Below are positions 3,545-40,402 of a DNA stretch of 64,000 nucleotides, piece by piece. Source of the DNA: Candidatus Melainabacteria bacterium (GTDB taxonomy: Bacteria > Cyanobacteriota > Vampirovibrionia > Obscuribacterales > Obscuribacteraceae); the NCBI GenBank assembly GCA_003242885.1, contig QKMZ01000006.1:1605563-1669562 (forward strand), read 5' to 3'. The position numbers were made by a program, and so were the translations under genes. A model generated the notes under the pieces. That model saw nothing but the letters and a program-made list of their open reading frames with translations. It was not told the origin of the DNA and did no database searches. The first letter of the stretch is position 1. Each line of letters begins with the position of its first letter.

Positions 3545-4171
3545 ATGTCGCAATCCGGTGGCGCAGTTCAAGCCGCAAAGAAGAAAGGTCAGGAGATGGT
3601 GAAAGCCCTTCTCGACCTTGTGATTCTGGCGCTTTTGTTGGCAGGTGCAGGATTCGGCGGCTACTTCTGGGGCTTGCACGAAAGGCTGGCTCCGATTCAA
3701 GAAGTCCCACCCGGTACAGCAAACGCGCTGCAACCTTCCGCAGTGGCCGCAACTCCGGCACCAGTGAAAACTGTTACGGAACCAACAAAAACCGAATCTG
3801 CGACCGCGGCACCCGCAAAATCCGGAAAGACAAAGTACTGGATTACATCGTCGGGTGAAGATTACATCGGTTATTCGATTACTGTCAAAGTCAACGACAA
3901 TCCAGTCGACAGTTTCTTCGGACCAGGAAAGAACGTCGACGTCTCCCGCTACGTCAACGCCGGCAACAACGAAATTTCTTTTGAAGCGAAAGCACTCGGC
4001 AAAGAGTATGACAAACACAAAAGCGATCCCAACGCAGTGCTGACCGTGCAGTTGGTAAAAGGTCCCCACGTCCAAGACGAGTTCAAGTCATCAGATGTGC
4101 TTGTAACCTACAAACGAAATGCTTCCGAAAAGGAAGATTTCAACGACAGCGAAAACTTCACTGCGAAGTAA
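3545..4171 (+). CDS. Membrane-anchored protein with beta-rich C-terminal domain, unknown function
   Basis: The 208-residue protein has a short cytoplasmic lysine-rich N-terminus and one transmembrane helix at about 22-46 (LLDLVILALLLAGAGFGGYF region). A Pro/Thr/Ala-rich spacer (50-92) follows, then a soluble domain starting at TKYWITSSGEDYIGY that looks like a beta-sandwich. The start at 3545 follows a GGGGGAGA-type ribosome binding site. It is followed 3 nt later by another small membrane protein gene, so the two are probably co-transcribed. I do not recognise the family. Confidence 0.75.
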   Translation: MSQSGGAVQAAKKKGQEMVKALLDLVILALLLAGAGFGGYFWGLHERLAPIQEVPPGTANALQPSAVAATPAPVKTVTEPTKTESATAAPAKSGKTKYWITSSGEDYIGYSITVKVNDNPVDSFFGPGKNVDVSRYVNAGNNEISFEAKALGKEYDKHKSDPNAVLTVQLVKGPHVQDEFKSSDVLVTYKRNASEKEDFNDSENFTAK

Positions 4172-4174
4172 GCC

Positions 4175-4624
4175 ATGAAAGCCAAAGGAATTTTCATTTC
4201 AGTACTACTCGTGATTGACACTTTCTTTGTGTCATACGCAGCAGGTTTTCATAGCAGACACGTACTTGTTGTAAATCCGAAGCTACCGCCTGTGGTGCAG
4301 AAGAAAGTGGAGGCAAAACCAATCTTGCCCTCCTCACCAACTTCAAAGACTAACACCAAAGATGTACACGCGAAGGGCTCTCACGCAAAAGATGCACATG
4401 CGAAAGATGCCCACGGAAAGAAAGATTCCGCGGACAAATCTAACCGTGCCAAGTCCCACGCTGCAAAACACGACACAAAACCTGCAGACACATCTGCCAA
4501 ACCCGTGACAAAGCCAGCCGCAACATCAACGTCTAAACCGGCTGCACCAAAACCTGCCGCCAAGAAACCTGCACCGGCAAAACCAACTTCGTCGCCCGCA
4601 GCAAAAACAAGTCCTGGCGCATAA
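4175..4624 (+). CDS. Small membrane protein with histone-H1-like Lys/Ala/Pro-rich tail
   Basis: The 149-residue protein has a hydrophobic N-terminus (about 5-25) that is either an uncleaved anchor or a signal peptide. The rest is low complexity: KDAHAK-like repeats at about 63-82, then a Lys/Ala/Pro/Thr-rich tail resembling histone H1 or bacterial AlgP-like tails. It starts 3 nt after the preceding membrane protein gene and is followed by a clear terminator, so the two genes form one transcription unit. A polyanion-binding role for the basic tail is only inference. Confidence 0.7.
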   Translation: MKAKGIFISVLLVIDTFFVSYAAGFHSRHVLVVNPKLPPVVQKKVEAKPILPSSPTSKTNTKDVHAKGSHAKDAHAKDAHGKKDSADKSNRAKSHAAKHDTKPADTSAKPVTKPAATSTSKPAAPKPAAKKPAPAKPTSSPAAKTSPGA

Positions 4625-4693: not shown

Positions 4694-5548
4694 TTAGACT
4701 TTCGACTTAATTACGCAAACAGCCGTTGGGCGTTTTACGCGAAGTACGAGTGATTCATAAACACGGAAGCGATAGTTCATGTCGCTTGGTCCGAGATATG
4801 CAATTTGCAGATCTTCTGCGACTGCGATATCGAAGTTTTGCGCGCCTGTAGAAATTACAGCGGCTGTTCCCTTCTCAATCATCGGGCTCCAGTGAATTCC
4901 GTCCAGGCAGAGCTTGCTCAACTGATCAAGTTCTAGCGCGGGCGATTCCTTAACTGGCTTGAGCAACTGTTCGTACATATCCAACGAGCAAACAAGCGCA
5001 TAGGGGAAGTGATGGTGCGCAGCGATCAACTTTGCAATCGCGGCATACACATCTTTGACCGGCTCGTTCGGAACCTTCCAATCTCCACCCTGAATTTTTT
5101 GCGAACCAGGATAGTTAAACAATCCATTGATGCCGAGCTCTTTATTACCGTTGAAGATCAAATCATCTTCAGCATCTCCAACTTGATGTGCTGCACGAAC
5201 AGCATTGGTGATGTCGATAGGAGCGTGCATGTCTTGGCTCCATTTCACATCGCGCCAATGCAACCAGAAATCTTTGTAGATAAGAGGAACGCGAACGTAT
5301 GTTTCTTTCTCGTGAGTTCCGATCGGATTTGTATCCGGTCTTCCTTCGAGATCGACTTCAGCCGGCTCATCATCTTTGATTGTTTCCAGCGGCACGCTCT
5401 CCACTCCGGCACCCAGAGGTCCGAAAAGTGCGATCAAACGACGACCTACAACAGTGCGTCGTACTTCTTGTGCAGCAGCTTGAATCATGTCTGACGCTTG
5501 TTCGTTCGTCAGAGGTAATTCAACCAGCTTTTGGTGCATCTTCCACAC
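4694..5548 (-). CDS. Encapsulin shell protein (family 1, Linocin_M18/CFP29-like)
   Basis: This is the HK97-fold protein that self-assembles into an icosahedral nanocompartment. It resembles the Thermotoga encapsulin along its length: the N-terminal PLTNEQ helix region, the VVGRRLIALFGPLGAG segment, the E-loop region with YVRVPLIYKDFWLHWRD, the helix with the AEDDLIFNG signature, GINGLFNYPG, and the C-terminal LRVKRPTAVCV strand. I place the start at a GTG (5548), because an AGGAGG sequence at 5555-5560 sits 6 nt upstream; this gives 284 residues, the normal length. An ATG at 5539 is the alternative. The binding site lies just upstream of, and abuts, the end of the cargo gene, so translation is probably coupled. 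The cargo is encoded immediately upstream. Confidence 0.93.
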   Translation of the reverse strand: MWKMHQKLVELPLTNEQASDMIQAAAQEVRRTVVGRRLIALFGPLGAGVESVPLETIKDDEPAEVDLEGRPDTNPIGTHEKETYVRVPLIYKDFWLHWRDVKWSQDMHAPIDITNAVRAAHQVGDAEDDLIFNGNKELGINGLFNYPGSQKIQGGDWKVPNEPVKDVYAAIAKLIAAHHHFPYALVCSLDMYEQLLKPVKESPALELDQLSKLCLDGIHWSPMIEKGTAAVISTGAQNFDIAVAEDLQIAYLGPSDMNYRFRVYESLVLRVKRPTAVCVIKSKV

Positions 5549-5550
5549 AG

Positions 5551-6177
5551 TTAGCCTCCTTGCGACCATAGTGGTCCGACAGTCCATTCTTTTTTGGTAG
5601 CACCACCGGTGCTGGGTTTTCCCTTTTGGTCGGAACGACCAGAACCACCGGAGTGACCCGAGTGTCCTTGCCCGGCTTGTCCAGAACCTTGCTCCGAACG
5701 CCCACCGTGCTGTTGCTTATCTTGCGATGAGGAGTATCCGCCGTGGCTACCACCACCACCGCCATGACCATGCGACGATCCGCTTGGTCTGGTTTGGTGC
5801 GTTCCAAAATTGGATACCACTCCAGGCTTGCCACCACCGTGAGGCGGTGCATCCGGACCTAACAATTCTGCTCGCCACTCAAGGTGTTCTTCCATAAAGT
5901 GATCGAGCAATTCACGTTTCAAATCAATAGACATAGCTTGTTCTTGCAGCATGCGCTGAATGAAGAAGCTGTGATCAAGCAGCTTTTGAGTCAAAAGAGT
6001 TGGACCAGCACCATGAATTTCTTCAAGCTTGGTGGTGTTTTCTTTTTCCTCTAAAAGGATATGCGCGAACATGCGCTGAGAAACATCGCCCGGTACGCCC
6101 GGATCATTGAGCACATGGAGTATGGTCTCCGTATGATCTGCGATGTTGTGAAGGATTTCGGCAAGTGGTGTAGCCAC
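5551..6177 (-). CDS. Encapsulin cargo: His/Glu-rich helical-bundle protein with C-terminal loading peptide
   Basis: The 208-residue protein has three parts. Residues 1-105 predict four helices carrying histidines and carboxylates at helix positions suited to a metal site: H10, H15, H39xxxE43, H69, H93xxxE97 and H98. This is reminiscent of hemerythrin or ferritin-like bundles, but the exact hemerythrin pattern is not complete. Residues 108-194 form a Gly/Ser/His/Gln-rich flexible linker. The C-terminus EWTVGPLWSQGG contains a TVGxL core, like known encapsulin loading peptides such as LTVGSL. The gene starts with GTG and lies directly upstream of the shell gene. An iron, oxygen or redox role is plausible by analogy; the fold family is not confirmed. 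Confidence 0.85.
   Translation of the reverse strand: MATPLAEILHNIADHTETILHVLNDPGVPGDVSQRMFAHILLEEKENTTKLEEIHGAGPTLLTQKLLDHSFFIQRMLQEQAMSIDLKRELLDHFMEEHLEWRAELLGPDAPPHGGGKPGVVSNFGTHQTRPSGSSHGHGGGGGSHGGYSSSQDKQQHGGRSEQGSGQAGQGHSGHSGGSGRSDQKGKPSTGGATKKEWTVGPLWSQGG
5555..5560 (-). promoter_or_regulatory. Strong ribosome binding site for encapsulin, abutting the cargo gene stop
   Basis: AGGAGG read on the minus strand lies at the very end of the cargo gene, next to its stop codon at 5551-5553, and 6 nt before the GTG chosen as the shell start. It decides that start over the upstream in-frame codons, which would fall inside the cargo gene. Confidence 0.75.
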
Positions 6178-6862
6178 AGCATTTCTCTCATGACGGTCCT
6201 TGCATTCTCACAGGTATTGCCAAAGCGTGTAAAGCGACGGACGGCAACCGATGGCGTTTACAAGCGACGAAGTCCGCGTATTGTCGCAACCACGCTTGCA
6301 AAACTTGTCGGAGTAGTTTGCAAGAAATGAGAATGAATTGCAATAAAGTGACAAAAACCTCCCTAAAACCAACTTTTCAATGACTTCAGACGCAACAAAC
6401 GGTTGAAAAACACTGCGATAACCATGATTTGCAAATAGGCACGCATTGCATTGTCCAGCCATTTTTGCACGCGCAACATATCTTAAACTGCGCTCCTGCA
6501 CGCGCGCCTCATCGCCACCGCACATCTTGAAAAGGTATGGACTGAACAAATCCGTATTTGAGAATGGCGCCAGTTGTCAACACCGCAAAGCCCGCCGTCA
6601 GCAAAATCGCCATCATGCATGTCGACATGCCACCACCATCTAGTCTCACGAAATTAAAGATGTTGTACGTCCTGTTTTCAACTAGTAGCATTCATCATCA
6701 GTGAAGTAGCTGCCGAAAATCTCGGCAACATCCTAATATGAATAACGCAACACCCACTTTCCCTCATGCAATGTCGGAATTACTTTGCATGCAGCAGGCG
6801 TTGCGCTAATAGATATTGAAGCCTTTGGACAAGTCAGCGTGCACTGAGCTTGTTTGTCAAAA
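6178..6862. other. Noncoding region upstream of the encapsulin operon
   Basis: About 685 nt separate the encapsulin operon from the molbindin gene, with no convincing long gene. Two inverted repeats lie 50-150 nt upstream of the cargo start: TGTAAA (6228-6233) with TTTACA (6257-6262), and CTTGCAAAACT (6295-6305) with AGTTTGCAAG (6315-6324). They could be operators or leader hairpins. A further hairpin (TGCCGA 6711-6716 with TCGGCA 6722-6727) lies downstream of the molbindin gene. One possible very small membrane peptide is listed separately. Confidence 0.5.
6509..6628 (-). CDS. Possible 39-residue single-helix membrane peptide
   Basis: An ATG at 6628 preceded by a GGTGG sequence opens a 39-codon frame. 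Its product has one hydrophobic stretch (MMAILLTAGFAVLTTGAIL) and a short charged tail. It sits alone in an otherwise gene-free interval upstream of the encapsulin operon. Nothing but composition supports it, and it may be a chance frame. Confidence 0.25.
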   Translation of the reverse strand: MSTCMMAILLTAGFAVLTTGAILKYGFVQSIPFQDVRWR

Positions 6863-7075
6863 CTATTTCTTGACCGGCAATACGTGAATTGCTTTGACGA
6901 CCAATTCAACTTCGTCGCCAATTTTCAATCCCATTTCTTCCAATGATTCTGTTGTCAGCACCGAAGCCATGTGGGAAGGACTGGTGACATCAAATTTGAC
7001 GAGCGACATGATATCGCCGTTCTTTACCGAAGTTACCTTTGCAGTGATCTTGTTTCTTGCGCCGTAACTTGCCAT
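6863..7075 (-). CDS. Molbindin-type (Mop/TOBE) oxyanion-binding protein
   Basis: The short protein (70 residues from the ATG at 7075) matches the Mop/TOBE fold: an ARNKITAKVTSVKNG opening, the MSLVKFDV strand, a HMASVLTTESLEEMGLKIGDEVELVVKA core and a short tail. Such proteins oligomerise and bind molybdate or tungstate in the cytoplasm. The ATG at 7075 is preferred over the upstream GTG because a GAGGTG site lies about 7 nt before it. No molybdate transporter is visible nearby. Confidence 0.85.
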   Translation of the reverse strand: MASYGARNKITAKVTSVKNGDIMSLVKFDVTSPSHMASVLTTESLEEMGLKIGDEVELVVKAIHVLPVKK

Positions 7076-29521: not shown

Positions 29522-29592
29522 CTCCGAGAGATGGATTCGAACCACCGTTCCAACGTTCAAAGCGTCGTGTCCTACCATTAGACGACCTCGGA
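29522..29592 (-). tRNA. tRNA-Gln (TTG), left copy
   Basis: It folds as a complete cloverleaf: acceptor TCCGAGG with TCTCGGA (one G-T pair at the base), anticodon stem CGACG/CGTTG with loop CTTTGAA (anticodon TTG), and T-loop TTCGAAT. It differs from the copy at 40232 by one acceptor base, which is still paired as a wobble. It marks the left end of the element. Confidence 0.88.
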
Positions 29593-29598
29593 TTATGG

Positions 29599-29640
29599 TG
29601 CCCGGCAGTGGATTTGAACCACTAACCTCTTGTTTCTAAG
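29599..29640 (-). repeat. 3' half of a tRNA, candidate attachment-site remnant
   Basis: This stretch matches the 3' half (acceptor, T-arm, anticodon loop) of the UAG-anticodon tRNA at 40403-40476, with 38 of 42 positions identical, and stops abruptly at the anticodon loop. Tyrosine integrases commonly leave such half-tRNA copies at one element end. The upstream half here is unrelated and forms its own hairpin (GCAGGAGGTTCCGAACCTGC). Confidence 0.65.
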
Positions 29641-29809
29641 GCAGGAGGTTCCGAACCTGCTTGAGTTTGACGAAACCAGCATAAGCCTGCTTCTCCTTTA
29701 CTAGCAGGAGTTTCCAGTCCTCTTTTAACCGGACTGATCTTGCCTAGTTTGACCAATCTAGCCTATTATGTTCCTACTAGGTTTTTACTAACGTTTGAGG
29801 CTTGATGGT

Positions 29810-31114
29810 GTGATTGTCGTGAAAAAGAAGAAACTCACAAACACTCTTGTTTCGTCCCTCCCATATCCGGCAAAGGGTGAACAACAAAAATATTACTGGG
29901 ATGCAGATCTTCCAGGATTTGGTGTTCGAGTCTCTCCTGGAACAAAAACCTTCTTTTGCGAGAGCAGAGTCGCGGGGAAAACAGTAAGAACCAGCCTAGG
30001 GAACACCAAAATTCTGTCAGCTGAAGAAGCTCGCAAGAGAGCAAAAGCAACACTAGGACAGATGGCCTCCGGTCTGAATCCAAACGCTCAGAAGAAGGAC
30101 GAGAAAGCGAAGTCAATCACCTTGCGCGAAGCGTGGCTGAAGTTAAAAGAGTCGCGACAACATTTGTACAGTCCTGCTACCGTCAAGGTCTACGAATGGG
30201 CACTCAGTCTATGTTTTCCTGATTGGCTAGATAAATCCATAGTTTTGATTACCAAAGACATGATCGAAAAGAGACATAGAATGATTTCGGAGCGCGTTGG
30301 TCCTCATTCGGCGGCTGATGGATCAAAAGCCTTGGCAAACCAAGGAATGAGGGTACTTAGAACAATTTTCAATTTCGCAATCGACACTTACGAAGATTCT
30401 GAAGGTAGATCGCTAATCCCGCAGAATCCTGTGCGGAGGCTCAAAGGGCAGTGGAATCGCATTGACTCCAGGCACGGATGCTTGAGGAAGGATGAGCTTA
30501 AACCATGGTTAGATGCAGTGGAGAAACTCTCAAGCGATGCCATTCGCGACCACTTGATTCTGTGCCTGTTTACGGGTCTGAGACGAAATGAAGCAGCTAA
30601 GCTTCGCTGGGACGAAGTCGATCTAAAACGTGGCACACTAACTTTTGCCAGCAGTCGCATGAAAAACAATCAGCCTCATCAAATCCCCGTTAGTGATTAC
30701 ATTCTGGAGCTGCTAAAACGCCGAGACGTTGCCAAAAAGACGGATGCAATTTACGTATTCCCTGGTCAGCGAGGGAATTCTGGACACATGATCGAGAATA
30801 TGGCATCTGTCAGGAAAGTAAGAGATCTGTCAAAAGTAAACTTCACAACGCACGACCTGCGTCGGACTTTTCTCACATTTGGTGAACAACTGGGGATTGA
30901 AAGACCCACACTTAAGCGCCTGGCAAGCCACACAGTTGGCGCCGATATCACAGAGAGATATATCCAGGCAGAGACAGAGCGCTTACGCATACCTGTGCAA
31001 TTAATTGCCGATTATATTTTGGAAGCCTCGGAGAGGCGCCCAGCCAAGAAAAACACGGTCAGGACAAAGACGTCAAGGCGCACTGCGAGCGGCGACAAGT
31101 TAGTGGCGCTATAG
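29810..31114 (+). CDS. Tyrosine integrase, P4-type (first of two)
   Basis: The product is 434 residues from a GTG at 29810 (GAGG 9 nt upstream); the open frame starts at TTG 29795. An N-terminal DUF4102-like arm-binding domain contains YYWDADLPGFGVRVSPGTKTF and the LGNTKILSAEEARKRA helix. The C-terminal catalytic domain has the first Arg in LFTGLRRNEAAKLRW, HxxR in TTHDLRRTF, a further His in LASHTVG, and the nucleophile Tyr in TERYIQAE. It lies next to the left tRNA repeats, the normal place for an integrase, and should catalyse site-specific integration at a tRNA. Confidence 0.92.
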   Translation: MIVVKKKKLTNTLVSSLPYPAKGEQQKYYWDADLPGFGVRVSPGTKTFFCESRVAGKTVRTSLGNTKILSAEEARKRAKATLGQMASGLNPNAQKKDEKAKSITLREAWLKLKESRQHLYSPATVKVYEWALSLCFPDWLDKSIVLITKDMIEKRHRMISERVGPHSAADGSKALANQGMRVLRTIFNFAIDTYEDSEGRSLIPQNPVRRLKGQWNRIDSRHGCLRKDELKPWLDAVEKLSSDAIRDHLILCLFTGLRRNEAAKLRWDEVDLKRGTLTFASSRMKNNQPHQIPVSDYILELLKRRDVAKKTDAIYVFPGQRGNSGHMIENMASVRKVRDLSKVNFTTHDLRRTFLTFGEQLGIERPTLKRLASHTVGADITERYIQAETERLRIPVQLIADYILEASERRPAKKNTVRTKTSRRTASGDKLVAL

Positions 31115-31286
31115 GTACCAACTCCGCTGGGTTTGTACTGAATCCGCCAAAGTTGCACTATATATGGTGGCTTGACGGAACGCTCTGGGCGACTGTTATC
31201 ATCTTGAGTCATTGGTCAACTTGCCGGGGCGCTGAGCCTCTGCTTTTGACTTTCCTTTTCGCCACACATCTGATGAGGTCAAGAAT

Positions 31287-32597
31287 ATGGCAGAGAGTAA
31301 AGGACTGCGCTTTTACATGAGGGATGACCTTGTAGCGCAGCTTTCAGCGATGCAGAAGCGAGTGCTTTATCAAGATGATGCGATTCCAGCACTTCGCTTG
31401 ATCGTGAATCCATCTGGTCGGCGTTGCTGGTTCTTCTACAAGTCAATCAATGGAAAGCCGACAAAGCTAAAGCTCGGTGAGTTTCCGCACTTGACCACGC
31501 AAGAGGCACGGGAAATCATCCTGTTAATGCTCAAAGAGGTTCAGCTTGGAGAACCACCGAAGAGTATTCGACCAAAAGCACTTATGAAACGAATTCCACG
31601 TTATCGGGAGGTCTTCAATCTCTACGTTCGAGACTATCTGAAAGTCCACAAAAGAGACAAAGAGTGGATCGAAGCTGAGCAGTCTTTCAATCGCTGTCAC
31701 CAAGATTTCGCGGAAAAACGCATTTCAGATATCACCAGATCGGAGCTTCAAGCCTGGATTAATCGGCTCGGCACGGAAAGAGGAAACCAGACAGCAAACC
31801 GGGAATTTAACCGCCTTCAGGCTGCCATCCATTACGGCGAAAAGATGGGACTCTACAAGCTCGAAAGTGATCCCACAAAGCACATTCAAAGATTCCCTGA
31901 TGTTCGTAGAACCAGATATTTGAGCCAAGAGGAAACACTCAGGCTATTGGAAGTGCTGAAGACCAGAAGCGACTATCAGCGAGACATCGTGATGCTTGCA
32001 CTCTTCACCGCGGCGCGAAAGGGGAACATCTTGGCGGCTCAATGGAACGAAATAGATCTGGATAATCGAATCTGGCGGATACCGGCCCACAAGTCTAAGA
32101 GTGGCAATGAGCTGGTACTGGCACTTACAGAAAGCGCTGTTAGCCTTCTTGTGCGTCGCAAGATCGCCGTTTCGAGCAGTCCCTGGGTGTTTCCATCCTT
32201 GCCGGACATTTGCGGGCGTAAAAGCGCATCTGGACACATTGAAAATTTCAATAAAGCTTGGCGGGAGATTTGCGCCGAAGCTGGACTTGATGATGTTCAC
32301 TTCCACGATTTGCGACACAGTGTCGCTTCTTGGTTGGGTGCCCAGGGCGTCAATGCTTTCACCATCATGGATGTCTTGGGGCATTCAACCATTGCCACCA
32401 CGGTGAGATACACACACCTGAATCAAGACGTTTCCAGAGCGGCGCTTGAGGCTGCGCACCAAAAACTGATGGTCGAGCCACTCGGCGCCCTGGAGCTGGT
32501 CAAGGATGATGAAGCATCGCGTGTTATCTTGTTCGACAAATTCGTAAAGAGACGCACAAGTCGCACGCAGTCTGAATTAGGAGATCTTGAATCATGA
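31287..32597 (+). CDS. Tyrosine integrase (second of two)
   Basis: The 436-residue recombinase has an N-terminal DUF4102-like part (LRLIVNPSGRRCWFFYKSI and LKLGEFPHLTTQEAR), a core-binding helical domain (about 110-200), and a catalytic domain with Arg in LFTAARKGNILAAQW, HDLRHSVASWLG, LGHSTIATTVRY and Tyr in RYTHL. It starts at an ATG with TGAGGT 7 nt upstream. It is only distantly similar to the integrase upstream, so the two probably use different sites. Confidence 0.92.
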   Translation: MAESKGLRFYMRDDLVAQLSAMQKRVLYQDDAIPALRLIVNPSGRRCWFFYKSINGKPTKLKLGEFPHLTTQEAREIILLMLKEVQLGEPPKSIRPKALMKRIPRYREVFNLYVRDYLKVHKRDKEWIEAEQSFNRCHQDFAEKRISDITRSELQAWINRLGTERGNQTANREFNRLQAAIHYGEKMGLYKLESDPTKHIQRFPDVRRTRYLSQEETLRLLEVLKTRSDYQRDIVMLALFTAARKGNILAAQWNEIDLDNRIWRIPAHKSKSGNELVLALTESAVSLLVRRKIAVSSSPWVFPSLPDICGRKSASGHIENFNKAWREICAEAGLDDVHFHDLRHSVASWLGAQGVNAFTIMDVLGHSTIATTVRYTHLNQDVSRAALEAAHQKLMVEPLGALELVKDDEASRVILFDKFVKRRTSRTQSELGDLES

Positions 32598-32857
32598 CTT
32601 TTTCGGAGCGGCGCCGCCTTGCCATTGCTCTTGATGAGCTGTCTAAAAAAGCATGGGAGAAGCGTGAGCAATCCTATGCGGCTAAGGACAAGCTGCAAGC
32701 GGTCAGACTGAGAAGAGAGAGTGACGCGCTAGACAAAGAATGGGAAGAGCTTGAACAGCATCTCCATCTGCTGGACGGCAAAGTCTTCGCGATAGACTCC
32801 AAGACTCTACGAATCCGCCGCGTCAAGCCCGGAGAACTTAACCCCCTGCCACTGTAG
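32594..32857 (+). CDS. Small coiled-coil protein, unknown function
   Basis: The 87-residue protein is highly charged and helical (RRRLAIALDELSKKAWEKRE, LRRESDALDKEWEEL). It overlaps the integrase stop by 4 nt (ATGA), so it is translated with it. An accessory role in recombination is possible, from context only. Confidence 0.6.
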   Translation: MTFSERRRLAIALDELSKKAWEKREQSYAAKDKLQAVRLRRESDALDKEWEELEQHLHLLDGKVFAIDSKTLRIRRVKPGELNPLPL

Positions 32858-32936
32858 GTGGTGACATATTTCGAAGACCGGGGGTACCCCCCGCCCAGCC
32901 TGGCGAGCGCCTCCCCCGTATCGCCTCTCCGAAATT

Positions 32937-33884
32937 TTATGGAATTTCTATAAGGGGACGTTTCGTCCAACCGCTCAGGTGCGCTTCATCGATTGAGAGA
33001 ATTCCGCTTTTTGAAAACCCTCGGCAGTGAAGGTGGTATGGCAATTCCACTGAAGCCCTGGGTTCTCTCTTTATGGTGCCGGTCGCTAACTTCATCCAAA
33101 CTTGCGGATGAAAAACAGTATCCGACTTCGCCTCGCAAGCCAAAAAGTACGGAGGTCCTTCATAGATCCAGGAATCAAATTTACCAAGTGAACCACTAGC
33201 GGGAGAGAGATTTAGTGTAAGCGCCTTAAGAGAGACTTCGAATTGAGCCAGGACATTTTCCGCAGACATGCGACCGTCGTTTTGTACTTCCAAATCAAAA
33301 TTCACCTCAGAGTCTGAAACACTCACAATTCTGATCCCGAGTTTGAGAGATGGTTTCGCGCTCCTTCCGAACCTGTCAGAAACCATCCAAGTTGGCATTT
33401 TCAGAAAGGACGAGCCGGAGCGGTAGTAGAAAGCTTTGTCCTGAGCTTGATGTGGGATGCTTTCACCCTTTGGCACGTAGGTAAACGCAAATCCTTTGTC
33501 TGAGCCCTCTTCCACTTCTAAACTCTCATGCCTGACGCCGATGATGCTTCCATCAACTATTTCAGGGCTCCTAGCGTTGAGATCTGAGAGAAGGTGCTTC
33601 AGTCTCGTTATTGGTTTCAATTCTTTGATGCAGTCTGGTTCATCGCTTCCCTTGGTTCGCCTGCAATCAACGCCCCAGACAATGACACCACCGCCGGAGT
33701 TAGCGAATCCGCTCAGTGCCTTAGAAAGATTTCGAATGTCGTCCTTGACCATTGGTGCTTGATCATCTTTGACTGTTTTGTAGTCAATCAATTCGGTTTC
33801 TATGCGTTTTTCATCGCGCACCTGGCACAAAAACTGATAGCCACCCTTTACAAAATTCTCAAAGATTTGCTCAGCTGAATCCAT
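32937..33884 (-). CDS. AlbA_2 (Schlafen-like) domain protein A
   Basis: The product is 315 residues from the ATG at 33884 (GGAGG 8 nt upstream; the frame is open for 7 more codons). The N-terminal part matches AlbA_2/Schlafen-type domains: an ExxxDYK motif (ETELIDYKTVK), an LSKALSGFANSGGGVIVWGVD segment and a YVPKGESIPHQAQDKAFYYRSG strand. The C-terminal half (about 180-300) is beta-rich and unassigned. It is downstream of, and 24 nt from, a second AlbA_2 gene. Such domains occur in nucleases and regulators, so an RNA-cleaving or regulatory role is possible but unproven. Confidence 0.75.
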   Translation of the reverse strand: MDSAEQIFENFVKGGYQFLCQVRDEKRIETELIDYKTVKDDQAPMVKDDIRNLSKALSGFANSGGGVIVWGVDCRRTKGSDEPDCIKELKPITRLKHLLSDLNARSPEIVDGSIIGVRHESLEVEEGSDKGFAFTYVPKGESIPHQAQDKAFYYRSGSSFLKMPTWMVSDRFGRSAKPSLKLGIRIVSVSDSEVNFDLEVQNDGRMSAENVLAQFEVSLKALTLNLSPASGSLGKFDSWIYEGPPYFLACEAKSDTVFHPQVWMKLATGTIKREPRASVELPYHLHCRGFSKSGILSIDEAHLSGWTKRPLIEIP

Positions 33885-33908
33885 CCGCTGATCCTCCGAA
33901 CGCAAGAC

Positions 33909-35099
33909 CTATTTCTGTAATGGTTTATAAATGCCATTTTGATAGTTTGGTGATCCTTTCCACCCTGCACTATTCCAAAGTGCGTCAAAGACTGATTTAA
34001 GCAGGATTGGTATGTCGTCCGCTTCAGACCACTCTCTCACCCACACCGCTGGTAGTGGCAAATGGTTTTCCAAGATCTTCTCTCCGTTTGAACCGGTTTC
34101 CCATGCCAATGCCTCCGAGGAAAACGAATAACCCGAGACGCCATTTAAGACGACTTTTATAAATATTGGTGGCGGCACATCAAGGGCCTTAAGTCCCAAC
34201 AGATATCCTTTAACGGCTTTGATTATTGTCTTCTCTAACCCGACTTGTGTGAATTCCGTACGTTCTTCGATTTGGTTTTGGTCTATTGCTTCAATCCGTC
34301 CACTTCGATAGACCTTTGCATAGTCTAATAACTGACCGTTGTCACCAAAGGTTCCGCGATGAGTCAAAAATCCCTCAGCGACAAAACGCCCAGTGTTTTC
34401 GCTTGAACCAATAGGTTGGAAGTACGGAACTTGCATTGCTATCGCTTCAACATCCAATGAATTCCCATCGTCGAGCGATGAGAGCGGAACAACAAAAATC
34501 ATTAGCCGTTTTGCATCAATGTACAGGGACCCATCAAGTGGATTTTTGATTAGTGCGCTCTTGATCCTTTCGTTAATCCACTCATTTATTTTGTCCGTGT
34601 AACTAGAAGAGAAAAGGACCGCTGCGCGAATCTCTTCAATACTCATGTCGATTTTTCCAGCCCCATGACGAATTACGAATCTGCGTGATTTGACGACTCG
34701 GTGAGGCATGTTGAAGCTGCGCAACACCTTGAGCGCTATTAGTGAATTACCGTTGGAAAGCTTGACCGGATGTAGCTTCACGCCTATGAGATTGGGCTCA
34801 ATGCCTGCCCTCAATACTTGAGTCATTCGAAGAGTCGTATCTTCAACTTCTGCATTTGGAATACCAGTCAGGCTCGTAATGAAGCCGCCTCCAGATTCCG
34901 CTGCACCGTAAATAATCAGCCCGCCGCTCCCATTTGCCATTGAGCAAACGTCGAGGCGAAATTCTTCCTTCTCTGGATCGGTAGTACCTGGCGGCACTTG
35001 CTTAAAGTCGAGGTGAACTGATTCCACAGTTTGCTCCGCAATCAGCTGATTGAGGTCGTCCTCGTCAATGTCATCTAGATTTTTCTGAAAAAGCCACAT
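33909..35099 (-). CDS. AlbA_2 (Schlafen-like) domain protein B
   Basis: The 396-residue protein opens with an AlbA_2 domain: ESVHLDFKQVPPG (ExxxDFK motif), then VCSMANGSGGLIIYGAAE, the same glycine-rich turn as in the downstream gene. A second, larger region (about 190-390) has no recognised fold. Together with gene A it forms a two-gene unit on the minus strand inside the mobile element. The pair may be an accessory or defence module. Confidence 0.75.
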   Translation of the reverse strand: MWLFQKNLDDIDEDDLNQLIAEQTVESVHLDFKQVPPGTTDPEKEEFRLDVCSMANGSGGLIIYGAAESGGGFITSLTGIPNAEVEDTTLRMTQVLRAGIEPNLIGVKLHPVKLSNGNSLIALKVLRSFNMPHRVVKSRRFVIRHGAGKIDMSIEEIRAAVLFSSSYTDKINEWINERIKSALIKNPLDGSLYIDAKRLMIFVVPLSSLDDGNSLDVEAIAMQVPYFQPIGSSENTGRFVAEGFLTHRGTFGDNGQLLDYAKVYRSGRIEAIDQNQIEERTEFTQVGLEKTIIKAVKGYLLGLKALDVPPPIFIKVVLNGVSGYSFSSEALAWETGSNGEKILENHLPLPAVWVREWSEADDIPILLKSVFDALWNSAGWKGSPNYQNGIYKPLQK

Positions 35100-35302
35100 G
35101 CAAAAGCGCCCTATCGCGTCGGAGAAGCAGTATATCGCCCTCCCCGTGTCAACCGAAATGGCCGCCCAGGCATGCCAAGTGGCGCCAAACGAAGTCCCTA
35201 TCTAAACTTCGAGCGTTTTGTTGGCGCAGTTAAGCATGTCTTACCAAACGAAAAACATTGGCAACACGCGATAGGATCAGAATTTTAGGGGCGGGAACAG
35301 AC

Positions 35303-36349
35303 GTGAAGTTTTTTGAGCAAGAGGCAAACAGCTTGAACCAGATGATGTTAAAGCTAGACCAATTGAGTAAATATTCCGCAAAAGAACTAGCGCAAAAAGT
35401 TGTATCAACAGGCGATTCGAGTGGAGAAGAAGCGTTTTTTGATTTCGTAATTTCTGCTGCCAAAGAAGCAAAAACAATGCATCTAACTCCTGGAGTTGGA
35501 AACGCATTGCACAGTGCTAATTCTTCACTAGATCCCGTAATTGCTTGTTTTCAGAGAATTGGAAAACTTGACCCCGCATTGAACGATAGTCAAAAACAAA
35601 ACCTCGTTGCAGAGACAAGAGATAGGTTTAAGGAGTCGTATCCCACGCTCGTTGCGCTGAGAGGATATGGGCTATCCAAAAGTGCCTTACAGAATGCTGC
35701 CAAACGGATCGCTGACGCTGCTGACAATTGCAACTCTCAGATTGAGGCAATTGGAAAGGACAGAGAGGAAATTGAAAAGTGGCACTCCGATAAAATGCAG
35801 CTCTTTGACGCAAACTTGAAAGAGCTGGGAAATGAAATAGATAAGGTAAAAGATCTCATCTCCAAGCTCGGGGTTGCAACCTATGCTGCACGTTTCGAGG
35901 AAGAATCTAAGGAGCACGAAAAGGAATCGCGTCTATGGCTCGATAGACTAAAGGCTTGTGCTTGGATCTTTCTTGTCGCATCGGGCCTTGTGCTCTTTGT
36001 TGAATATGCACAGCCTCACGCCGGCGACGGAATAGTTTCATGGTTCTCATCGACCGCTTCTCGTTTGGTAATTCTTTCGCTGCCTTCAATCGGTCTGTTT
36101 TTATGTATGCGGAATTACGCCGCATGCAGGCACAATTACATAGTTAATAAACATCGACAAAATGCTCTATCCACCTTTCATCTGTTTCAAGCCGCAGCGA
36201 CCGACGAAGAGACAAAGAAAGCCGTCATGCTTCAGTCCCTTCAGGCGATCTTCTCACCCCAAAGCAGCGGGTATCTGAAGTCGGCAGCAGATAGCCAACC
36301 CAGCTCACAGTTCATTGAATTAATCAATAAGACGGTCAAGGATCACTAA
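35303..36349 (+). CDS. Coiled-coil protein with two C-terminal-half TM helices
   Basis: The frame is open from TTG 35258; a GTG at 35303 gives 348 residues and is my preferred start, though neither has a strong binding site. It has an all-helical N-terminal part (about 1-175), a long charged coiled coil (about 165-215), two hydrophobic helices (about 216-238 and 250-275), and a conserved-looking C-terminal block (NKHRQNALSTFHLFQ and SLQAIFSPQSSGY). I do not recognise a named family. It is divergent from the AlbA_2 pair and faces the iterons, inside the accessory part of the element. Confidence 0.7.
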   Translation: MKFFEQEANSLNQMMLKLDQLSKYSAKELAQKVVSTGDSSGEEAFFDFVISAAKEAKTMHLTPGVGNALHSANSSLDPVIACFQRIGKLDPALNDSQKQNLVAETRDRFKESYPTLVALRGYGLSKSALQNAAKRIADAADNCNSQIEAIGKDREEIEKWHSDKMQLFDANLKELGNEIDKVKDLISKLGVATYAARFEEESKEHEKESRLWLDRLKACAWIFLVASGLVLFVEYAQPHAGDGIVSWFSSTASRLVILSLPSIGLFLCMRNYAACRHNYIVNKHRQNALSTFHLFQAAATDEETKKAVMLQSLQAIFSPQSSGYLKSAADSQPSSQFIELINKTVKDH

Positions 36350-36363
36350 AGTAAGCCAGCTCT

Positions 36364-36529
36364 TGCGTCACCTGCGTTAACTGAAGACAGGGTCCGCCTC
36401 TTAAGCTGTTCTGCTTCGTCCACAGGTGCGTCACTAGCTCGTCACAGATTGTGACGCACCAGTGACGCACCTGTGACACAGAAAAACGCCGCAAACGATC
36501 CACCTGCTTGGTGCGACGCATGTGACGCA
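36364..36529. repeat. Iteron cluster, candidate replication origin
   Basis: Six or seven copies of a (T)GTGACGCA(CC) unit lie within 170 nt in both orientations: TGCGTCAC at 36364-36371, GGTGCGTCAC at 36425-36434, GTGACGCACC at 36451-36460 and 36462-36471, TGTGACACA at 36472-36480, TGCGACGCA at 36512-36520 and TGTGACGCA at 36521-36529. They end just before the 3' end of the primase-helicase gene, a common place for an origin recognised by a satellite replication protein. Confidence 0.7.
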
Positions 36530-36533
36530 AAAA

Positions 36534-38930
36534 TCACGGCACCCTTATGGTTATCATCCGATGTTCGCGCGTCCTTGACCATTCAACAGTGCATCCTGCT
36601 TTTCGCAAGGCGGGCGCAAGCCTTCTCAGTTGGTCGCTTAGCTGTTTTGGGTTTTTCGGGAAGTTGGGAGCATCAATGTCTTCCGGCTTCACTAGTCTTC
36701 TGAGAATATTGGTGGCGGTGTCATAAGTCTCACCTCCCTTAAAGCACCTGATAATGGCTTGCGCCAATGCAGATGTTTCAAGCATGTCGTCATTTACTTC
36801 CTGCCTCATCCTTACGTATGCCTCATACACTTGCCCTGGTTCCATCTGTAACGCCGGTTCAGCCGCCGTTGCCCATGTCAAAAAATCAGCCATGCGCACC
36901 TGCTTTTCGAGCGTCACCGTATCCACGAAAGACAGTGCAGCGCTAATAGCATCAAGCAAGGACCCAAGCACACCAGCATGAATGCGATTGAATTTTGCTT
37001 CTAAGCTCTTTTCTGTTTGTCGTTTCTCATCACTTATAGCGGACAGTTTCAGAGAGATCACGCGGTCGTTAAAGTCGTCTCGTGAGGTCGGCTCGTCAAT
37101 ACCATTAATCAAAATTGGGCGATGAGTTTCAAACGTGGTTTCTTCACGGTTGCTGTACAGCTCCCTAGTGCTTATTCCGGTTCCGGACGCGACACGACAA
37201 CAAACGTCGCTGAGCCAATTGGGCAAACCGGACAGATTGTCGTAGGCAAGAACATAGCTGTTTTCTGCTGCGATCGCCAGGTCCCGCTCGTCCTTTGGTG
37301 CAGCTCGCAAAGGCGCATCGACGGGATCAATCAACTGCTTTATTGTGCGTGCCATGAAAGTTTTTCCGGTGCCCTGTTCACCGGTCAAAACGAGAATTGG
37401 AAAGGCTCCGCATGGAGGCTGAAAGATGCTCAGGAGCCAAGAAGACAGGAGAGTCTTTTGATGATCAGTATCAAGATTTAGTAGCTCGAAGAGTGAAGGT
37501 AAGTTGCCGCCGCGCACTGGAATTGGTAGCTCTCTTAGAGTTTTCCCTCGAATAAATCTGATTTGGCACTCTGAACAGTCAATCACTCTCCAACCACTCT
37601 CAGAAATCTCGACTACTTGCTTCTGCTTGTTCGCCAGGTCCAAAAAGATCTTGCCGTCCCGGTGAGCAATACGAACTTCTGGTTTCTCCTCTTTTCCCCT
37701 GAACTTCGCAATACCAGAGAGAGTGCCAATGCATTCCTTGATTGCTTCGCGTCCAGGAGAGGCGGCGATCTCCTCAAAATACCTGAAGCACAACCAATCC
37801 GAAAATGATTTGGATTCAAGCGGTAGGTGTTCAACGATGCTCTGCTCCCGTGGAATGGTTGCATATGCGTTGCCTTCAGCGTCATGCCATAACTCGATTC
37901 CGTGCGTGCATTCAAGTAGGAGATCTTTCTGAGATCTCTTCTTGCCGCCTTGGAGGTCTGGCGCATTTTCACAATGTTTTTCTGATCTCGGTCCTTCAGA
38001 CTCCTTGACCACCTTTCGTGACTCCCACTGTTTTGCGGATTTGATTTTTGCTGTAAAGTCGGCGCGAGTGCCACCAGCCTTGATAAAGTCTGTCGAGTCT
38101 TTGTGATCGTTGAACATAAGCAGCTTTACGGGCTTGAACTTATGCACCTGCACGCAATACTCTTGCGCTTTCTTTAGCCCTGGCTCTTTCTTGTTTCCTT
38201 TGACCAGGTCGTTGTCAGCGACAAAAATGATCCCCGGCGCGCCTTCCAGGTCGGCGTTCCAGTCGTCGTTCCAGTGATCAGAAACTCCACCGCATGAGAA
38301 CGCTGCATACTTCAGATGCTCGACAACATTGTCTGCATCTTTTTCGCCTTCGACATGCACGACCGGACGCCCTTCGGCTGCGGCTTTACAAGCGACATCC
38401 CAATTGTAGGGGTCCATTTTAAGACCCCTCCAGGACGGTTTGATCTTGCCGCCCTCAATTCGGAAGCGTCGGAAATCTTTCGGCGCGAAGCGCATCTTGA
38501 AGGCATACGGGGTACCGTCTTTGCGACGATAGACGTATAGCTTTTCCATGATCGGCTCTGCTCTATCTTCAGGCCACTTGAATGGAAACACGCCCCATTG
38601 TTCAACGGTGATGTACTTCCAGACCATGCCGTCAGCGTCCGGCGCTTGCGCTTTTTTAGGAAAATTTACGCCCTTGGCGCTAAACCATTCCTTCAATTGT
38701 TGATACGTGCTGCACTTAGCGAAACAGTGCATCAGAAGACCCTTGTCGCCTACACCTATGCTGAGTGACTTCGTATTAGTGTCGTCATGGAGAGGGCAAA
38801 ATGCCGTGTATCCTTTGCTCTCCGATCCGCTCGGCTTTAGACTGCTTGAGCGCAGCACGCCTACAATTTCTTGGAGGAGCTGAGCGGCGACAAAGTTGCC
38901 ACCACTGGTAGTTTGTTCTATATTGTTCAT
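36534..38930 (-). CDS. Primase-helicase with CHC2 zinc finger, TOPRIM and AAA+/SF3-like ATPase
   Basis: The 798-residue replication protein has an N-terminal zinc-finger primase segment (CPLHDD ... HCFAKC, about 45-80), a TOPRIM-like part with VVHVEGEKDADNV (about 190-203) and IIFVADNDLVK, a middle linker, and a C-terminal helicase with Walker A GEQGTGKTF (about 530-538), VLAYDNLSG as Walker B and an arginine region in DDFNDRVISLKL. The ATG at 38930 has GAGG upstream. It would prime and unwind element DNA at the iterons that adjoin its 3' end. Confidence 0.9.
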   Translation of the reverse strand: MNNIEQTTSGGNFVAAQLLQEIVGVLRSSSLKPSGSESKGYTAFCPLHDDTNTKSLSIGVGDKGLLMHCFAKCSTYQQLKEWFSAKGVNFPKKAQAPDADGMVWKYITVEQWGVFPFKWPEDRAEPIMEKLYVYRRKDGTPYAFKMRFAPKDFRRFRIEGGKIKPSWRGLKMDPYNWDVACKAAAEGRPVVHVEGEKDADNVVEHLKYAAFSCGGVSDHWNDDWNADLEGAPGIIFVADNDLVKGNKKEPGLKKAQEYCVQVHKFKPVKLLMFNDHKDSTDFIKAGGTRADFTAKIKSAKQWESRKVVKESEGPRSEKHCENAPDLQGGKKRSQKDLLLECTHGIELWHDAEGNAYATIPREQSIVEHLPLESKSFSDWLCFRYFEEIAASPGREAIKECIGTLSGIAKFRGKEEKPEVRIAHRDGKIFLDLANKQKQVVEISESGWRVIDCSECQIRFIRGKTLRELPIPVRGGNLPSLFELLNLDTDHQKTLLSSWLLSIFQPPCGAFPILVLTGEQGTGKTFMARTIKQLIDPVDAPLRAAPKDERDLAIAAENSYVLAYDNLSGLPNWLSDVCCRVASGTGISTRELYSNREETTFETHRPILINGIDEPTSRDDFNDRVISLKLSAISDEKRQTEKSLEAKFNRIHAGVLGSLLDAISAALSFVDTVTLEKQVRMADFLTWATAAEPALQMEPGQVYEAYVRMRQEVNDDMLETSALAQAIIRCFKGGETYDTATNILRRLVKPEDIDAPNFPKNPKQLSDQLRRLAPALRKAGCTVEWSRTREHRMITIRVP

Positions 38931-39008
38931 GTTAAGCCTCTAGCCGCCCCCGGTTCTTCTCTCCTGGGGGCGGAATTGTATTAGTGTGATTTCGATGACG
39001 GTATTTGA

Positions 39009-39326
39009 TTAGGCATTCGGTCGTGATCGCGTCTTGACACCATTCAGTGCGTAGTCGAAATAGCGCTTGGGATCACGATTGCGAAAGTAAATTGCCATGA
39101 GCGCGTTTTCCACTTGCATGCGCAGCCAGTCATCCTCGGCAGCGTACTCTTCTCCTTCGAAGGAAATTCCGCGCACACTAAGCGCTTCTACGATGCAGGC
39201 GATGAACGGCTTGCCGTCAATTTTCACGTGCAAAGATCCTTGCTTGAAAATTCCTGGACCTAAGCGCTCGAACTTCTCAAGGACTTCGCATTTGATGACT
39301 TCTATTCGCGGTAGCGGTCTAATCAT
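39009..39326 (-). CDS. Unknown small element protein
   Basis: The 105-residue protein starts at 39326, where ATGA overlaps the stop of the excisionase-like gene; a GGAGGT site lies about 7 nt upstream. It is mixed alpha/beta (IRPLPRIEVIKCEVLEKFER, IDGKPFIACIVEALSVRG) with a basic C-terminus. No family is recognised. It is co-transcribed with the excisionase-like gene, upstream of the primase-helicase. Confidence 0.65.
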   Translation of the reverse strand: MIRPLPRIEVIKCEVLEKFERLGPGIFKQGSLHVKIDGKPFIACIVEALSVRGISFEGEEYAAEDDWLRMQVENALMAIYFRNRDPKRYFDYALNGVKTRSRPNA

Positions 39327-39535
39327 TGGCTGACCTCCGTTGATTGTTCGGAGATCCAAGCTAGCAATTGGCGCCTGTCATAACGCACAAGCCGACCCAA
39401 CTTAAATGATGGGGGTCCAACCTTTCTATTAGTCCACCTCTCCAAGGTTGATTCCTTGCAGTTGAGGATGTCGGCTACTTGCTTTCTAGTTAGCAGATCG
39501 AATGATTGTTCAGAATCTGTATTCGGTGTATTCAT
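39323..39535 (-). CDS. Excisionase/AlpA-like HTH DNA-binding protein
   Basis: The 70-residue protein is a MerR-like (HTH_17) winged helix: LLTRKQVADILNCKESTLERW, then GPPSFKLGRLVRYDRRQLLAWI, where the wing RLVRYDRRQL is typical of excisionases and AlpA regulators. It probably controls excision direction or the replication operon. It is translationally coupled to the gene behind it. Confidence 0.88.
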   Translation of the reverse strand: MNTPNTDSEQSFDLLTRKQVADILNCKESTLERWTNRKVGPPSFKLGRLVRYDRRQLLAWISEQSTEVSQ

Positions 39536-39817
39536 AAAATTACTCTTCTAGTTTTCTAGGTGTTGCGCCTGTTGTTCGATCTGCCTTGCCTTGTAGGAAA
39601 GAAACTAGCAACTAAAGAGTCCAAAACAGTCTCAATCTGGCTACGTGCAAAAGAAAGGCTAGAAACCAACCAGTTCTGCCATTAGCGGGATTGAGTGCTC
39701 TTTTGTCCTATGAATCGATTGGATTAGTTTGTAGGCGGAAAACCGCTTACTTAGTTAGATTCAGAGATTTCAATTGGTAAGTGAGCCATTGTTCTTTTGA
39801 AAAAAAGAATTCTGGAT
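39536..39817. other. Regulatory gap upstream of the excisionase-primase operon
   Basis: This 282-nt region carries the leader of the minus-strand operon. It holds a CTAGTTTTCTAG inverted repeat near 39549-39560, and related CTAG/ACTAGC sequences near 39604, that could be operators or arm-type integrase sites. No gene is seen. Confidence 0.4.
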
Positions 39818-40132
39818 TTAATCTTTCTGATTCATAGACGCAGCCATAAATCGTTTGTGATGCGATCTTTGAAACCGGCTAAGGAATGGTCTGACATCAA
39901 TTGGTGTCACTTTCAGAGCTTTGAAAGCAGCTTCAACCGCGTCTAGCGGATAGTACCACCTACCATTTATATAGATCGTCCGATGCCTAATTTGCTCTAG
40001 AACACGATCAGGGTTGCTACCACTAGCGATGGCATATCGTCTCAGGGTTGCTTCGTTTAAGTGAATTCCTTGGGGGCGCATGTTAGGGGATTGGCTCATG
40101 GTGGGTGGAGAAAAGCGTACTCTTTCTCTCAT
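39818..40132 (-). CDS. Possible DNA-binding protein near the right element end
   Basis: The frame is open from TTG 40156; an ATG at 40132 gives 104 residues and ATG 40099 gives 93. The product has a helix-turn-helix-like stretch (LNEATLRRYAIASGSNPDRVLEQI) followed by a wing-like strand (RTIYINGRWYYPLDAVEAAF), similar in layout to small phage regulators. No firm family match. It ends at the element side of the right tRNA-Gln copy. Confidence 0.5.
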   Translation of the reverse strand: MRERVRFSPPTMSQSPNMRPQGIHLNEATLRRYAIASGSNPDRVLEQIRHRTIYINGRWYYPLDAVEAAFKALKVTPIDVRPFLSRFQRSHHKRFMAASMNQKD

Positions 40133-40231
40133 ATACTCGATTCGAATGTTAGTCAACTTTTCACGTGGAAATTAAGAGGATGGCATATCCAATACAGATG
40201 TCCTTCGCGTGCGACACTCAAAAGAAAGTTT

Positions 40232-40302
40232 CTCCGAGGGATGGATTCGAACCACCGTTCCAACGTTCAAAGCGTCGTGTCCTACCATTAGACGACCTCG
40301 GA
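40232..40302 (-). tRNA. tRNA-Gln (TTG), right copy
   Basis: It is the same cloverleaf as the left copy but with a fully Watson-Crick acceptor stem (TCCGAGG/CCTCGGA), anticodon TTG in loop CTTTGAA and T-loop TTCGAAT. It forms the right boundary of the element and the first gene of a tRNA array. If the element entered the 3' end of this tRNA, this copy is the reconstituted one. Confidence 0.9.
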
Positions 40303-40402
40303 ATATCCGTCTTGAAATCAAAGCGATTGATTTAGGACGGTCGAATTTCTCCATTGTGCCTAATAGGTGCCTACTAGGTTAATTTCGAAACCCTATAAAC
40401 TC

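Follow-up and report, generated by a model that had tools for sequence, protein, structure and literature searches.

A small number of enzyme classes account for the known cargos of family 1 encapsulins (PMC8346489). The metal centers of EncFtn and IMEF are formed between subunits (PMC11202242, PMC6668986), and encapsulated Bfr-like (Flp+Flp) cargos have been reported in some Firmicutes, Aquificae, Chloroflexi, and Cyanobacteria (PMC8346489, PMC11202242). Among the papers searched, none linked encapsulin to Melainabacteria or Obscuribacter. The operon reported here resembles the IMEF system of Quasibacillus thermotolerans (shell, 6nj8; cargo, 6n63) in having two components and a shell of a related large-shell clade by sequence, and the cargos share a four-helix bundle (here predicted), an unusual set of His and Glu residues, a flexible linker, and a TVGSL-type end peptide. 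It differs in that it belongs to a different phylum, its cargo gives no PF24309 match and is approximately half disordered linker, and the tail reads WTVGPLW instead of TVGSLIQ. M. xanthus EncA with EncB and EncC is also similar, since its shell is about equally close, its cargos have a TVGSL-type tail, and helical hairpin units occur in both systems. However, the EncFtn of EncB and EncC is one hairpin with an ExxH motif that forms decamers, whereas the present cargo appears to consist of two fused hairpins without ExxH, and sister lineages were found to have EncFtn as a cargo of its own, distinct from the present one. The actinobacterial family 1 hemerythrin cargos have four helices (predicted in our cargo), conserved His residues, and HxxxE spacing in common with our cargo, which nevertheless matches neither the hemerythrin model nor the hemerythrin profile. 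The Flp+Flp cargos likewise show duplicated helical units, a C-terminal loading peptide, and one phylum in common, but they comprise two full four-helix bundles, while one of approximately 105 residues is predicted here. We consider the following account of the locus fairly probable: a family 1 encapsulin operon of two genes, whose four-helix His/Glu cargo, docked by its tail, oxidizes or stores iron.

The sequence-only reading had placed a shell gene and a cargo gene in the window, i.e., the whole 64,000-nucleotide stretch of DNA that was analyzed, and both were found at the positions given, on the minus strand and with GTG starts. The shell gene (4694–5548) encodes 284 amino acids, and the cargo gene (5551–6177), which adjoins it on the same strand with a 2-nt gap, encodes 208. 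The cargo stop codon TAA occupies 5551–5553, and the shell GTG begins two bases downstream. In a gene-junction alignment, the shell start GTGTGGAA was identical in 11/11 loci from several genera, and CAAGGAGG, which contains the Shine–Dalgarno sequence just ahead of the cargo stop, was nucleotide-identical in 11/11 loci, with synonymous variation in the codons before it. These identities support both the coordinates and the translational coupling claimed in the earlier reading. The shell is coupled to the cargo through its Shine–Dalgarno sequence AAGGAGG (5555–5561, minus strand), which lies within the last cargo codons (QGG) and thus overlaps the cargo end.

Approximately 300 bp upstream of the cargo gene (6178–6487) are kept across the genus and include a near-invariant block, TTTTTGTCACTTTATTGCAA, at 6338–6357. 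No Rfam family was found in this region, Rfam having given tRNAs only, and no clear Fur box was detected upstream of the operon, where no site scored above shuffled sequence for the window. This conserved stretch may be a regulatory region or a leader RNA. Farther upstream, a stand-alone, molbindin-like TOBE-domain protein of 70 residues is encoded at about 6865–7075 (minus strand). Two genus-conserved genes on the plus strand (4175–4624 and 3545–4171) are convergent with the operon and have no Pfam match; one of them encodes a membrane-anchored-looking protein rich in Lys, Ala, Pro, and His.

When the shell was searched against encapsulin families, as had been proposed, it matched PF04454 with 188 bits (E = 1.7e-55; Pfam cut-off 24.3) and NF041155 (encap_f1) with 220.4 bits (NCBIfam cut-off 100), both far above the cut-offs. 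These profile matches identify the 4694–5548 protein as a shell of the known encapsulin family 1, and the earlier assignment is hence retained. The closest solved shells were 6nj8 (T = 4, Quasibacillus; E = 3.8e-60) and M. xanthus EncA (T = 3; E = 6.8e-59), whereas T. maritima-type T = 1 shells matched far more weakly (~1e-10), which suggests that the particle belongs to the larger T = 3/T = 4 class. An HK97 fold is implied by the E-values of ~1e-59 to solved shells; the AlphaFold model of the shell, with 11 close sequences, had a pLDDT of 37. As the HK97 fold is common to encapsulins and phage capsids, and PHROGs returned a weak, partial match (35 bits) to a major head protein, the shell might be taken for the major capsid protein of a prophage. 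The probability of this is negligible, because the encapsulin models scored 188–220 bits while the Pfam capsid model PF09950 remained at 25.7 bits, under its cut-off of 26.8. Moreover, phage genes were not seen near the operon, the sole integrative element found in the window lies 23 kb off at 29.5–40.3 kb, and the cargo was not found in the 2.9 million viral contigs searched; searches of plasmid and viral collections gave no relatives. Hence, the shell does not fall with HK97 capsids inside a prophage, a possibility that the sequence-only reading had raised. The integrative element (29522–40303) is located between two tRNA-Gln copies with an identical 63-bp stretch, which are likely the attachment sites. 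It encodes two tyrosine recombinases (29795–31114 and 31287–32597) and a large, unassigned protein (36534–38930) that by eye looks like a primase/helicase.

The cargo comprises a predicted four-helix bundle of approximately 105 residues with two related hairpins and invariant His and Glu (residues 1–106; 5860–6177, minus strand), a Gly/Ser/His-rich linker of variable length (residues 107–197; 5587–5859, minus strand), and the tail WTVGPLWSQGG. AlphaFold2 modeled the bundle with a mean pLDDT of 94.5, and helices were assigned to residues 4–24, 30–57, 61–78, and 84–106. Comparison between hairpin 1 (helices A and B) and hairpin 2 (helices C and D) gave an hhalign score of 35.6, compared with a maximum of 18.0 for shuffled controls and with 13.9 for reversed ones. 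By this comparison, the bundle is an internally duplicated helical hairpin. Residues invariant over all groups include H10, N11, H15, H39, E43, E44, H69, H93, E96, E97, H98, and E100, among which the pseudo-repeated set H15/H39xxxE43/H69/H93xxxE97 shows the spacing of hemerythrin-type ligands. The model and these residues describe a small four-helix protein that is probably metal-binding. In the monomer, the two His/Glu half-sites are located ~15 Å apart along the bundle according to a crude estimate from helix boundaries, so that the metal site may form between subunits. A second subunit may then complete each half-site, in the manner of the EncFtn and IMEF centers.

The cargo had no family match in Pfam, NCBIfam, or PHROG, and none meaningful was obtained in Pfam or NCBIfam for any member of its family. 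PDB sequence searches with the cargo and its profile gave chance matches only, and a PDB fold search with the model gave no match at E 0.001. The matches that appeared in the fold search were generic bundles, including the designed single-chain di-iron protein 2hz8 (TM 0.61) and a flagellar chaperone, and were set aside as fold-level resemblance.

In the main functional rival to iron storage, the cargo would be a hemerythrin-like di-iron protein of the HHE/YtfE type that binds or detoxifies O2, NO, or peroxide without mineralizing iron. With one invariant His in each of helices A and C and an invariant HxxxE in each of helices B and D, the cargo does show HHE-type spacing, and family 1 encapsulins with hemerythrin cargos are known (PMC8346489). 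However, no member of the cargo family matched PF01814 in Pfam, the 50 best PDB fold matches listed for the cargo included no hemerythrin, and the estimated axial offset of the half-sites exceeds the span of a single di-iron center. Hemerythrin homology was further rejected on comparing the cargo profile with 24 hemerythrin-like domains from relatives, as the score of 15.2 was below that of the shuffled control (23.2), with a probability of 0.9%. We therefore regard a hemerythrin-like identity as unlikely, and equally so the stress-protection compartment that it implies, of the kind proposed for actinobacterial hemerythrin encapsulins. Hemerythrin-domain proteins themselves number four in the present genome (e.g., C15:169582-170022) and up to six in its relatives.

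The main evolutionary rival, which is compatible with an iron role, is that the cargo is a duplicated and diverged EncFtn, i.e., a distant member of the known ferritin-like class, and not of a new family, made of two fused hairpins with metal sites between subunits. The relation between the bundle halves (35.6 versus a shuffled maximum of 18.0) agrees with this, as does a weak similarity of hairpin 1 to EncFtn around HxxxEEKE (hhalign 22.4, shuffled maximum 16.1, probability 35%); EncFtn is in addition the neighboring cargo in related lineages. Against it, the similarity of hairpin 2 to EncFtn was not above shuffles, and the EncFtn ligands, Glu in helix 1 and ExxH in helix 2, are not conserved, the aligned place being ExxN or ExxS. 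Two genomes also hold both proteins in one cell, which would make them at least old paralogues. A duplicated EncFtn is hence a possible origin, which we hold only tentatively. PF22277 (EncFtn) was unmatched in 13/13 members of the cargo family tested, and no member matched PF24309 (IMEF) in Pfam. As judged from its sequence, the cargo is not EncFtn, IMEF, or hemerythrin.

A genome-neighborhood search had been proposed for conserved pairing, and the pairing proved strict. PF04454 was detected in 16/289 genomes of the class, 14 of which belong to the family of the present genome, and a single-sequence search plus a profile search of 382 class genomes located the cargo in exactly the same 14, adjoining the shell in each. 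No cargo without a shell was found by the profile search of the 382 class genomes, and the one genus member without shell and cargo has a genome that is 64% complete. The 14 shells with a cargo were grouped into one clade by a branch with 100/99 support, and cargo and shell are conserved together in six or more genera of non-photosynthetic relatives of cyanobacteria. These relatives are mostly metagenome-assembled, and the profile searches covered Cyanobacteriota; a scan of all prokaryote species used main-group short peptide patterns, which would miss diverged members. One relative (L014/L043) carries a frameshift after TLLTQK that splits the cargo gene, and its shell is intact; the frameshift may be either an assembly error or a real loss.

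Two further cargo relatives, in another class, emerged when 292 genomes of the phylum were searched with the profile (E about 5e-21). Their ends, LTVGSLIGL and TVGSLLGPAS, contain the canonical TVGSL. In both genomes, the shell gene is on a different contig from the cargo-domain gene and is directly followed by a gene for a short ferritin-like cargo ending in LTVGSMMG or LTVGSLLG. The LTVGSMMG-ending protein is a true EncFtn by Pfam (PF22277, 37 bits, cut-off 27) and is closest to M. xanthus EncB. Given this arrangement, the new protein appears to be encoded in trans as a second cargo, and the other-class genomes likely carry two-cargo encapsulins. In two other families of the class to which the present genome belongs, shells occur with short EncFtn/IMEF-like cargos carrying TVGSL, the Pfam matches of which were weak and below cut-off. 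No EncFtn was found in the present genome, where the sole PF00210 match is a Dps-like protein, so that in Obscuribacteraceae the new protein is the only cargo.

The loading peptide assigned to the cargo, WTVGPLW (residues 198–204; 5566–5586, minus strand), ends in TVGPLW, a variant of TVGxL. It was conserved as WTVGP(L/M)W in 11/11 full-length main-group sequences, and its codons changed synonymously while the residues stayed, which indicates selection on the protein. The codon pattern ACNGTNGGNCCNYTNTGG, corresponding to TVGP(L/F)W, occurs twice in the 6.7-Mb genome. Since the second copy lies inside a transporter, that of the cargo is the only one at a C-terminus, and no second cargo with a TVGP(L/F)W tail was found in the genome. 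The earlier claim that the gene upstream of the shell ends in a TVGxL-type loading peptide is thus borne out for WTVGP(L/M)W. It does not extend to the conserved QG(G/D) end, which is mostly a ribosome site because it overlaps the shell Shine–Dalgarno sequence; the QGG after WTVGPLW is explained by this overlap and is not to be counted as loading peptide. The tail was conserved in 10/10 full-length main-group relatives from other genomes, in keeping with its expected retention alongside the shell, and two divergent relatives (L004 and L016), in which the cargo is encoded after the shell, end in LSLGSLR. The linker between domain and tail has 91 residues here (31% G, 16% S, and 9% H) and is unalignable among main-group relatives, in which it ranges from 22 to 120 residues.

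That the upstream gene is a conserved operon neighbor with another role, resembling a cargo in its tail by coincidence, might be argued from the departure of this tail from the TVGSL consensus (P for S, and W after L) and from the part of its conservation that stems from the shell Shine–Dalgarno sequence. This is highly improbable, as WTVGP(L/M)W survives synonymous codon changes in 11 loci, the homologous domains of the other class, encoded on another contig than the shell, carry canonical TVGSL ends, and the cargos of the reversed-order operons end in LSLGSLR.

Asp38 of the Klebsiella shell bridges a basic residue after the targeting motif (PMC10960027). This numbering was placed on the shell motif by our own alignment, in which EncA (tail TVGSLRR) and the L004 shell (tail LSLGSLR) have Asp at the corresponding position, the shells paired with TVGPLW have Ala or Ser, and the other-class shells (tails TVGSLLG/TVGSMMG) have His. 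The related L016 shell is truncated at that site. The comparison comprises few independent cases, and its direction fits a TVGPLW tail that would occupy the usual pocket but form no salt bridge there. The TVGPLW tail together with the Ala/Ser docking change would be a second loading code, of possible use for engineering.

For the cargo as an iron-oxidizing or iron-storing passenger, we infer cargo loading, particle size, metal binding, and iron chemistry as follows. The shell protein would self-assemble with icosahedral symmetry, and the resulting container would probably fall in the larger T = 3/T = 4 class. During assembly, the C-terminal WTVGPLW of the cargo would dock in the inner targeting-peptide pocket of the shell. 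The flexible Gly/Ser/His linker would then tether the small bundle within the lumen. The bundle, presumably born by fusing two helical hairpins and lined with conserved His and Glu, most likely binds iron, oxidizes Fe(II), and nucleates the mineral to be stored there, so that the cargo would serve these bacteria as EncFtn or IMEF does elsewhere. Iron oxidation or storage is preferred because, in a large-shell encapsulin, the cargo fills the slot of EncFtn and has many conserved His and Glu residues, and because searches of the present genome gave no EncFtn and, for PF00210, a single Dps-like match. It is also favored by the origin of the nearest solved shells in iron-storing systems (PMC6668986), and by the EncFtn-like cargos in other families of the class and in the other class. 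The iron role is weakened by the absence of ExxH, with ExxN at the aligned place, and by the weakness of the similarity to EncFtn. Further points against it are that no PDB fold match reached E 0.001, that the half-sites are by estimate ~15 Å apart in the monomer, and that no Fur-box-like site was prominent upstream. Taken together, the cargo most likely oxidizes or stores iron.

The passenger seems to represent a new cargo type, which may take the place of the usual encapsulated ferritin. The suggestion of a new nanocompartment type applies to the cargo, whose family is new, and not to the shell, whose family was already known. We give about an even chance to a fuller proposal, in which fused-hairpin four-helix metalloproteins, distinct from EncFtn, IMEF, and hemerythrin, form a new cargo class that started as an extra cargo in trans beside EncFtn. 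In Obscuribacteraceae, it would later have become the only cargo, and the loading peptide, the docking residue of the shell, and the ribosome site would have been adjusted jointly. The two genomes that hold both kinds of cargo represent a natural case of cargo exchange. If true, a cargo with no Pfam or NCBIfam family would add a class to those known, together with a minimal metal-bundle design of ~105 residues. In the present genome, which has no EncFtn and only the Dps-like protein for PF00210, the compartment may be the main iron store.
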